A stretch of DNA of 45,566 nucleotides, from contig JANJXB010000081.1 of assembly GCA_024709245.1 (NCBI GenBank), positions 1-45,566 on the forward strand, in the 5' to 3' direction. The notes beneath the pieces were generated by a model. It did no database searches and was not told the DNA's origin. It worked only from the letters and a program-made list of their open reading frames with translations. Shown here piece after piece: positions 6,299-8,192 of the stretch. A program made the translations under genes and the position numbers. The first letter of the stretch is position 1. The number at the start of each line of letters is the position of its first letter. This DNA comes from Acholeplasmataceae bacterium (lineage in GTDB: Bacteria > Bacillota_I > Bacilli_A > Acholeplasmatales > Acholeplasmataceae).

Positions 6299-6328
6299 AA
6301 CGATATCCCTCGTGGGTATCGTTTTTTT
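6299..6328 (+). terminator. Intrinsic terminator after the gltX-lipoprotein unit
   Basis: AACGATA, a bulged T, CCC, loop TCGT, GGG, TATCGTT, ending in a run of seven T. Confidence 0.9.
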
Positions 6329-6342
6329 AACCGTTATCGGTG

Positions 6343-6365: not shown

Positions 6366-8192
6366 ATGAAAATTTCCAAGACCAGATTTATCAATCTGAT
6401 TCGCTGTAACCGGTATGCCGCACTCGATGAGATCTATCGGGATAAAGAAAAGGCGGTTGTTTCATTTTCAGATGATCCTGAACTTGAGGATTTAATGGGT
6501 GAGGAGAATCGTGAAAAAGTGTCTTTTCTCTTGGATGACATGGTGGATGAAGATGGTGAAGATTTGCTCATCCAAAAAGATGAACAAATGGAAACGATGT
6601 TACCGTACTATAATCAAATTGAAATGCTTGCCGGAAAAGCGATTCGGTCACGATTTGGTGGCGAAGTCATCTATGCATTAAACACCTACGATCAAAAAAG
6701 GTTTGAATACGAGTATGAAGGGTTTAGATTGTACTGTTTCCTTGATGGCTATCAGGAAGATGACGATACCATCCGCATTTTTGAAGTGAAGGCAACCACC
6801 TCTAAAAAATTCATTGATATGACATATACCAATTCTGAAAAAGAAAAAGTCGGTGTTTTCATTGATTCTCCTGAAGGCATTCTCATGCTTCAGCAAGATG
6901 TCTTTGGAAAGATCAATGAAGCTTATCAAAAGAAGATTGAAAGACTCAAAGATAGACTCACCAAGGAAGGACGTTATGTCTATGACATATCCTATCAAAG
7001 ATATGTTTTAGAACATGCCATCCAATCCAAAAAGAAAATCAAGTATTATCTGGTGGTTTTAAACAGTGAATATATACATCAAGGTCTTACCAATGAAGCT
7101 TTAGAACCCATCTATGATGATTCGATTGTGAAATTCATCGATGTGACTTCTCTTTCAAATGAAATGATGGATATTGTCTCAAATGATGTTGATGTTGTCA
7201 TTCAAAGATTGAATGTCATGAATGGGAATCCTGTTCATCTGGGTAAGCATTGCCAACGAAAAGATTCAAGACAATGCAAATTCTATCCCATCTGCTATAA
7301 GCATTTACCTGTGTATAACAATATATTCACTTATATGGGTTCTAACCACGGTTTTAAAGATGAAGAGGGAGTCAAGCATGACCGGTATGATCTCATCAAT
7401 GAGGGGATTGTTTCTGCACTTGATGTTCCGTATCACTGGATTGAACGCGGGAATAATTTAATTCAAAGACAAGTGATGGAGACGGATATCCCGTATTATC
7501 ATCCTGGAAAAATCAGGGCAGGAATCGAAACGTTGAAATATCCCATTTATCATCTGGATTTTGAAACATTCCCATGTCCAATTCCACGATTTAAGGGTGA
7601 GAAGCCTTATGCACAATCCTTATTCCAGTATTCCATCCATATTGAGCACGCTCCGGGAGTGTGTGATAAGCATCGGGATAACTACAGTTACATTTCAACC
7701 ACACATGCAGACAAACGAAAAGAACTGATTGAAAACATGTTGAAAGTCATCCCAAAAGATGGCGGTACTGTGCTTGTCTACAATCAATCTTTTGAACAAA
7801 CAAGATTAAAAGAAATGGCTGAAATCTTCCCTGAATACCGTGAAAGACTTCTCGATATTGTGGATCGTCTCTTTGATTTGATGCATTTACTCCGAGGAAA
7901 TCAAAAACTATTTACCCCACTTGGATTCACTGAAGAAGAGAGTAAAACCATCAATTTTTATCACAATAAACTCAATGGCTCCTTCTCGATTAAAAAAGTA
8001 TTACCCTTATTTTCTAACCTCGATTATCAAGGCATGGGGGTTGCTAATGGGACAGATGCACTGGTCACCTATGCGAGATTCCCACTCATGGATTCCGAAA
8101 CATTCAAACAAAAATATCAGGAACTTTTGGAATATTGCAAACAAGATACTTGGGCAATGGTCGAGATTCTAGGACAACTCAGAACGATTTGA
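6366..8192 (+). CDS. Two-nuclease protein: Cas4-like PD-(D/E)XK plus DEDDy exonuclease (DUF2779-type)
   Basis: 608 residues. The N-terminal half (about 1-320) has the Cas4/AddB layout. Cys14 sits in LIRCNRYAAL, a PD-(D/E)XK core is formed by Asp127 (FLDGY) and Glu140-Val-Lys142 (FEVKATTS), and Cys296, Cys304 and Cys310 could complete a 4Fe-4S cluster with Cys14. The C-terminal half (about 390-608) has RNase H-like exonuclease motifs: YHLDFET with Asp398 and Glu400, VYNQSFEQTRL, and Tyr590-xxx-Asp594 in LEYCKQDTWAM (DEDDy type). The overall layout matches DUF2779 proteins. I infer DNA processing or repair, with no CRISPR array nearby. SD GGGGTG precedes the ATG. A promoter and cysS follow. Confidence 0.8.
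   Translation: MKISKTRFINLIRCNRYAALDEIYRDKEKAVVSFSDDPELEDLMGEENREKVSFLLDDMVDEDGEDLLIQKDEQMETMLPYYNQIEMLAGKAIRSRFGGEVIYALNTYDQKRFEYEYEGFRLYCFLDGYQEDDDTIRIFEVKATTSKKFIDMTYTNSEKEKVGVFIDSPEGILMLQQDVFGKINEAYQKKIERLKDRLTKEGRYVYDISYQRYVLEHAIQSKKKIKYYLVVLNSEYIHQGLTNEALEPIYDDSIVKFIDVTSLSNEMMDIVSNDVDVVIQRLNVMNGNPVHLGKHCQRKDSRQCKFYPICYKHLPVYNNIFTYMGSNHGFKDEEGVKHDRYDLINEGIVSALDVPYHWIERGNNLIQRQVMETDIPYYHPGKIRAGIETLKYPIYHLDFETFPCPIPRFKGEKPYAQSLFQYSIHIEHAPGVCDKHRDNYSYISTTHADKRKELIENMLKVIPKDGGTVLVYNQSFEQTRLKEMAEIFPEYRERLLDIVDRLFDLMHLLRGNQKLFTPLGFTEEESKTINFYHNKLNGSFSIKKVLPLFSNLDYQGMGVANGTDALVTYARFPLMDSETFKQKYQELLEYCKQDTWAMVEILGQLRTI

Follow-up and report, generated by a model that had tools for sequence, protein, structure and literature searches.

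The closest described relatives of the protein analysed here are the members of the DUF2779 family (PF11074), whose fusion with DUF83 was already published in 2014 as cluster F.17, with a 3'-5' exonuclease activity presumed and no further function given in the accessible portion of that paper (Majorek 2014, PMC3985635). The same portion describes COG2251 as a DUF83-like nuclease joined to an RNase H-fold exonuclease, often with tandem AAA domains (PMC3985635), and a phylogenomic survey of Cas4 does not name DUF2779 (PMC5704561). The available text of PathFams ranks DUF2779 among the top pathogen-associated, lineage-spread domains, a ranking that may reflect mycoplasmas and phytoplasmas, and that of Rocha 2005 (PMC1193525) states a gap, namely the preparing nuclease in RecA-positive bacteria that have neither AddAB nor RecJ.

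We analysed a window of 45,566 bases, the whole of one contig in a 1.54-Mb draft genome (126 contigs, 92.7% complete) of an Acholeplasmataceae bacterium. An ATG-started open reading frame of 608 codons (Table 1) encodes the single PF11074 match of the assembly, covering residues 395-541 (E = 2.7e-39, 134.7 bits vs. a cut-off of 23.3), and the same protein scores slightly below the cut-off for RNase_H_2 (PF13482; 20.5 bits vs. 22). The fusion architecture has been described before, and the window protein is an ordinary and clear member of the DUF2779 family: it has the same domain pair and, apart from the 608-aa long form found in its clade, shows no difference. It has its architecture in common with the COG2251/TM0106-type RecB-like nucleases (PF13482) but carries no AAA domains, and the TM0106 model, which we take to be part of the NCBIfam library, is absent among its NCBIfam rows at E ≤ 1. 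To the UU173 family (NF045869) it is homologous over the DEDDy half, scoring 68.6 bits where membership calls for 225, and UU173-type members differ in having lost both the cysteines and the D-E-K residues described below.

Table 1. Features of the DUF2779 locus in window coordinates; fractions count homologues out of 30, the window protein included, for each residue named.
Feature	Position	Strand	Basis
Stem plus T run resembling a terminator, following the lipoprotein-like gene upstream	6299..6330	+	Not above chance
DUF2779 protein gene, 608 aa	6366..8192	+	Open reading frame list, Pfam PF11074, conservation
Cas4-like PD-(D/E)XK half, about residues 1-315 (boundary approximate)	6366..7310	+	phrog_1706, Cas_Cas4 matches of relatives, AF2 model, Foldseek
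Cys14 codon, putative Fe-S ligand	6405..6407	+	29/30, one gap
PD-(D/E)XK set: Asp127 (6744-6746), Glu140 (6783-6785), Lys142 (6789-6791)	6744..6791	+	29/30, the one gap being a truncated row
Cys296 (7251-7253), Cys304 (7275-7277), Cys310 (7293-7295), putative Fe-S ligands	7251..7295	+	30/30
DEDDy (RNase H-fold) exonuclease half, residues 391-608	7536..8189	+	Pfam, AF2 model, fold superposition
Exonuclease motif I: Asp398 (7557-7559), Glu400 (7563-7565)	7557..7565	+	Conservation, 30/30
Exonuclease motif II: Glu477	7794..7796	+	Conservation, 30/30
Exonuclease motif III: Tyr590 (8133-8135), Asp594 (8145-8147)	8133..8147	+	Conservation, 30/30

The AF2 model of the window protein, built from 71 sequences, has a mean pLDDT of 93.4 and a pTM of 0.89, and its C-terminal half (residues 391-608) superposes on the exonuclease domains of family-B DNA polymerases (VIA Z 13-15), including KOD 1wns (Z 13.4, rmsd 3.3 Å, 167 residues aligned), 5mdn_A (Z 13.8, rmsd 3.2, 171 aligned) and pol alpha 8g99_A (Z 15.3, rmsd 2.5 Å, 173 residues). 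The fold is that of the proofreading domains, from which the window protein differs in having Glu477, within a YNxxFE motif, as its motif-II acid and in having no polymerase domain. An acidic quartet and a tyrosine are thereby placed on an RNase H-like fold, as in DEDDy exonucleases, and the putative exonuclease would presumably run 3'-5'.

For the N-terminal half the sequence signal is faint, consisting of a match to phrog_1706 ("CRISPR/Cas system associated") at residues 107-154 (E = 5e-4), of Cas_Cas4 and PDDEXK_1 matches in 4 and 3 of 71 relatives (E ≤ 0.1), and of a weak alignment between the family profile and the C-terminal region of a Cas4 of solved structure (E = 0.22); Cas_Cas4 (PF01930) gives no match to the window protein itself at E ≤ 1. 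Foldseek with the whole model lists Cas4 SSO0001, MGME1, RecE and Exo5, which we take to be PD-(D/E)XK folds, at E 0.014 to 0.2 (aligned ranges not given), and Pop2/Caf1 and TREX are also among the matches listed, with a single match reaching E 1e-3. Asp127, Glu140 and Lys142 (D-E-K) form a catalytic set of the Cas4 type, and this set, four conserved cysteines and, tentatively, the fold are common to the window protein and the nuclease domains of Cas4, Exo5 and AddB, from which it is set apart by its fused exonuclease and by a draft genome in which no Cas1 was found. The cysteines of Cas4 and AddB are spaced C-x2-C-x5-C, an arrangement present in 3 of 70 DUF2779 proteins, with C-x5/7-C-x5-C in 59; the four cysteines probably hold an Fe-S cluster. 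The sequence-only reading, which had proposed a Cas4-like nuclease and a DEDD exonuclease fused in one protein, is borne out by the open frame, the Pfam match and the model. Its named residues are present and conserved across the 30 homologues, with the omitted Glu477 to be added, and the RNase H-like core whose lack it had said would refute it is there.

To compare the two halves, we used a wide alignment of 121 proteins from 119 genomes (119 of the 164 class-sample genomes with DUF2779 over the cut-off, window protein included). All five of D398, E400, E477, Y590 and D594 are retained in 120 of the 121, and L134 is the exception. For D-E-K and cysteine counts one split gene (L138) was left out, giving 120 readable proteins. 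D-E-K is kept in 67 of these and lost in 53; all four cysteines are present in 70, three in 23 (all from family f8), and two or fewer in 27. The losses take different forms in different families. In phytoplasma-like f1g7, so labelled from its resemblance to the records of two phytoplasmas, Onion yellows and strawberry phyllody (L214, L225), all four cysteines are lost and D-E-K is kept in 6/6 readable proteins, and the same holds for those two records themselves. Family f22 has lost D-E-K in 24/24 proteins and kept the four cysteines in 23/24; D-E-K is likewise incomplete, with four cysteines kept, in 8/8 f24 long forms and in the one f12 protein. Both sets are gone from all 20 proteins of f18 (19) and f25 (1), which are UU173-type, five scanned members all lying above the UU173 family cut-off. 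In the seventh phytoplasma-like f1g7 genome (G272), the split L138 gene lies in two frames, with its DEDDy half still open.

Family f8 (23 proteins, L060-L069 and L140-L152), which like f18 is labelled mycoplasma-like from its TGA reading and UU173 matches, keeps D-E-K and has lost C304 in 22 proteins, with one doubtful row. A cysteine adjoins Asp127 in 23/23 of them and a C-x-H stands at the last cysteine in 22/23, features found in 0/98 non-f8 proteins, and this pattern is perhaps a rewired metal site, with Zn or an altered Fe-S cluster. A tree built from the DEDDy half requires a minimum of four changes in D-E-K and three in the cysteine set. A further 80 named genome loci, gathered with a query that favours relatives of the window protein, include 74 that are intact throughout; three of the other six are N-terminally truncated, and three (L198 from an Acholeplasma sp. 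draft, and two phytoplasmas) are without cysteines and keep D-E-K.

By these alignments the cysteines and the PD-(D/E)XK site can be lost separately, and neither is needed for whatever retains the protein, whereas the DEDDy site is almost never lost. The near-absolute conservation of the DEDDy set while the Cas4-half sites decay points to the DEDDy exonuclease as the core activity of the family, and the window's lineage keeps both halves. Two joined active nucleases, which the sequence-only reading had put forward, cannot be how the family works in general, given the counts above for D-E-K, for proteins with fewer than three cysteines and for the DEDDy set. We agree with its statement that DUF2779 function is not established: in the open-licence literature on DUF2779, COG2251, UU173, TM0106 and YprB, and on Cas4 with DEDDy or as solo Cas4, we found neither a functional study nor any mention of this decoupling.

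Three further ideas about the Cas4 half were considered and set aside or left as suggestive. AddA presence as the driver of D-E-K loss has a strong raw table (15 intact and 30 lost with AddA, 52 intact and 23 lost without), but the independent-pairs analysis of the DEDDy-half tree gives a null result (of 7 pairs, 0.3 same, 0.3 opposite and 6.4 without difference). A Cas4 fold for the UU173 N-terminal half is not supported, as hhalign aligns the C-terminal half only; a UU173-type model (mean pLDDT 75.6) has no Cas4 entry among the 50 matches listed, an absence that is not evidence, and this half may have decayed or been replaced. Loss of the SUF system as the driver of cysteine loss is suggestive. 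SufBD is present in 258 of 296 genomes (two matches in the window's own), and fewer than three cysteines are found in 25 of 35 SUF-negative vs. 2 of 85 SUF-positive proteins, the SUF-negative status of 18 genomes being assigned by elimination from the positive list; only four independent pairs are available, however, one agreeing and three without difference. The pattern would fit a genuine Fe-S cluster but is no proof of one, because the events are few and because f8 (three cysteines kept in nine SUF-negative genomes), f25 (cysteines lost, SufBD present) and the draft genome G215 (L154; all four cysteines kept, no SufBD match) do not follow it.

The gene is preceded by gltX and a lipoprotein-like gene, and followed by cysS, a small ORF (presumably MrnC-like, without an NCBIfam match), a P-type ATPase and a SpoU methylase. 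Terminator-like sites are at chance level (1 found vs. 1.4 in shuffles). In related families (f1, f3, f5) a cysS homologue lies within about 6 kb of the DUF2779 gene in 7 of 39 loci and a gltX homologue in 6 of 39, and in other relatives the gene adjoins different housekeeping genes (fmt, EF-P, mnmA, lon, trigger factor). No conserved partner gene was found, the largest neighbour cluster covering 25 of 120 loci, 23 of them from f8, in a clustering that may split divergent homologues. From these neighbourhoods we read the window gene as vertically inherited, chromosomal and stand-alone, without a fixed partner; in its own family it is present in 23 of 26 genomes. Acholeplasma laidlawii has an orthologue (L212). 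In f8 the gene order is a 209-aa gene, DUF2779 and fmt (L063 4579-7658, L148 3945-6690). In JCVI-syn3A fmt is 0390 and EF-P is 0391, with 0389 unnamed in the texts consulted; a guess from gene order is that 0389 may have been the DUF2779 gene and that the minimal cell has lost it.

Short DUF2779 genes also occur on mobile elements, and a scan of 6 of 29 plasmid records and 9 of 15 viral loci found defence-type neighbours on plasmids L357, L358, L360, L361 and L362 and on viral contigs L266, L269, L272 and L274. These include a GajB-like helicase (L269; PADLOC E = 2.4e-51), GmrSD (L272; HEC-06, 1.1e-70), type I restriction (L274), WYL (L266), a NACHT ATPase (L361), a GHKL ATPase and a helicase (L362; PADLOC MzaB 3.5e-19 and PbeA 2.7e-27), and an AAA ATPase (DolB 1.3e-7); in L359, L264, L273, L276 and L277 no clear defence gene was seen among the neighbours. 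The short mobile form is a candidate defence nuclease. The best whole-model matches of the window protein are predicted giant-virus proteins in BFVD, A0A5K0U8I2 (Yasminevirus, 892 aa; Foldseek E = 1.3e-9, TMq 0.50) and E3T4R0 (Cafeteria roenbergensis virus, 594 aa; E = 8.3e-9, TMq 0.45); the same predicted two-domain architecture is perhaps present in eukaryotic viruses.

For distribution, we tabulated DUF2779 forms, called long or short by open-frame length (short being about 530 aa or less), against AddA (E ≤ 1e-60), RecJ (E ≤ 1e-40) and Cas1 (E ≤ 1e-10) in 296 genomes, reduced to 295 by dropping G264 and with a sub-cut-off DUF2779 match in G032 counted as absent. Long DUF2779 and AddA occur together in 23 genomes, long DUF2779 only in 108, AddA only in 145 and neither in 19, and the short form accompanies AddA in 31 of 33 cases. 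Uncorrected for phylogeny, the genomes carrying long DUF2779 number 97 of the 111 that have neither AddA nor RecJ, 11 of the 16 in which RecJ occurs alone, 14 of the 60 in which AddA does, and 9 of the 108 that have the two together, a distribution complementary to AddA and RecJ. A loose AddA search in 18 genomes left a clean gap, with 16 having best rows of E 1e-19 to 1e-26 to helicase-like fragments; the exceptions were G126, with a real AddA, and G094, with a partial 709-aa AddA-like frame (1e-50).

As the long forms do not make up a single clade (those of f8, f18 and f25 lie outside the 45-row window clade), we repeated the AddA test on the window clade, that is, the long forms of ten families, obtaining a family-stratified CMH z of -4.77, an optimistic value that ignores ancestry within families. 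On an rpoB tree of 78 genomes (from 80 randomly drawn from seven families, with G069 and G148 left out as having no rpoB match), a Pagel-type likelihood test gave LR 12.86 (p = 0.012; p = 0.025 with G094 recoded as AddA-positive), with DUF2779 gains mainly where AddA is absent, but the independent-pairs test on the same tree was not significant (4.3 opposite, 1.7 same, median p = 0.45). The anticorrelation with AddA thus survives one phylogenetic test and fails a stricter one.

The window's own genome has RecA (E = 1.1e-167), no RecJ at E ≤ 1e-40, and no AddA at E ≤ 1e-60, the top-scoring rows being helicases (702 and 459 aa; E ≥ 5e-25); the window protein, having no helicase domain, is not itself an AddAB enzyme. 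Neither AddA nor RecJ is found in any of the 26 genomes of its family, and RecA is found in all four non-phytoplasma genomes tested there, its own included. Among the phytoplasma-like genomes, two of six have no RecA match yet keep both active-site sets (L136, L137), and RecA-dependent recombination therefore cannot be the sole use of the protein. In two further genomes recA looks broken, being split with two TAA in phytoplasma-like G316 and cut short in G292 (f8).

Our preferred reading, to which we give a probability of about 0.5, is a housekeeping nuclease in which DEDDy is the working site and the Cas4-like half a grip, serving end and gap processing where AddAB and RecJ are lacking. In this picture the C-terminal domain would digest single-stranded nucleic acid, in all likelihood at DNA ends, as an exonuclease running 3'-5' by two-metal catalysis. 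The N-terminal domain, which resembles Cas4 and AddB and would be held together by a Cys4 cluster, probably Fe-S, would grip and thread the strand, and a surviving D-E-K site, as in the window protein, would add a second cut. The protein would thereby supply end and gap processing in bacteria of the class without AddAB and RecJ. More tentatively, the long form might be the missing presynaptic nuclease of acholeplasmas, mollicutes and relatives lacking AddAB and RecJ, a helicase-free single chain with an active DEDDy site and a Cas4 accessory discarded piecewise, Fe-S ligands and active site independently. Against end processing stand the 23 of 295 genomes in which the long form and AddA co-occur and three genomes of the window's family (G021, G034, G032) that are without AddA, RecJ and over-cut-off DUF2779.

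A further point against DNA end processing comes from Mycoplasma bovis (Metamycoplasmataceae), whose DUF2779 protein we infer to be UU173-type: in the accessible part of a mutant screen, an insertion at 0.39 of the length of the gene left growth normal in medium and poor on host cells, the screen also yielding the nucleotide-recycling mutants NrnA and GdpP, with nucleosides restoring a nanoRNase mutant (PMC7373297). This phenotype favours a 3'-5' exonuclease that acts on RNA or oligonucleotides, in RNA turnover and in the salvage of nucleotides, with the Cas4 half serving as a nucleic-acid clamp only, as do the best PDB rows of the UU173-type model (REXO2, 3'hExo and oligoribonucleases) and the keeping of the gene in genomes without a RecA match. 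We consider this account doubtful, as the available text on that screen also reports the replication and repair genes HolA, DnaB-like and RecD (PMC7373297), the DEDDy half of the window protein best matches DNA polymerase proofreading domains among the rows aligned, and the distribution is complementary to AddA and RecJ. The Cas4 half that is lost, moreover, is of a DNA-nuclease type. An origin as an anti-phage or plasmid-defence nuclease, since settled in the chromosome, would agree with the defence-type neighbours of the short mobile relatives; it is made unlikely by the housekeeping setting of the window gene, with homologues of its neighbours no more than about 6 kb away in other members of the order, by the presence of the gene in most genomes of its family, by the lack of a meaningful PADLOC match for the protein (best E = 0.0021) and by the lack of any phage match (tblastn, 50,697 records, E 1e-5).

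That both sites cut, with opposite polarity, agrees with the complete active-site sets of the window protein and its own genus and with the cutting reported for Cas4 in the available part of the Cas4 survey (5'-3', and both ways in one study; PMC5704561). We regard it as improbable, and with 53 of 120 readable relatives lacking D-E-K it cannot hold as a general mechanism. A role in CRISPR prespacer processing, as a solo Cas4 with an added trimmer, would suit the Cas4-like half, and DEDD exonucleases trim prespacers in some systems. We regard it as highly improbable and rejected a CRISPR link: the 92.7%-complete draft has no Cas1 at E ≤ 1e-10, which leaves the protein outside the CRISPR-associated Cas4 proteins, and DUF2779 is unrelated to Cas1 across 295 genomes once stratified by family (CMH z -0.31). 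The sequence-only reading had placed the fusion outside CRISPR and suggested a genome search for CRISPR and AddAB; the search was worthwhile, with neither Cas1 nor AddA found in the draft, and the first claim stands for this genome, but the absence of CRISPR is uninformative about the protein in view of the same lack of association.

What is new here is comparative, concerning which site is the engine of the protein and where its gene occurs. The natural mutant series, with cysteines lost and D-E-K kept, cysteines kept and D-E-K lost, or both lost, accompanies this comparison, and a domain of unknown function is turned into a sharp hypothesis and a testable candidate for break trimming. We propose the long-form DUF2779 protein as an answer to the question raised in 2005, in that it may be the DNA-preparing nuclease of RecA-positive bacteria without AddAB and RecJ.
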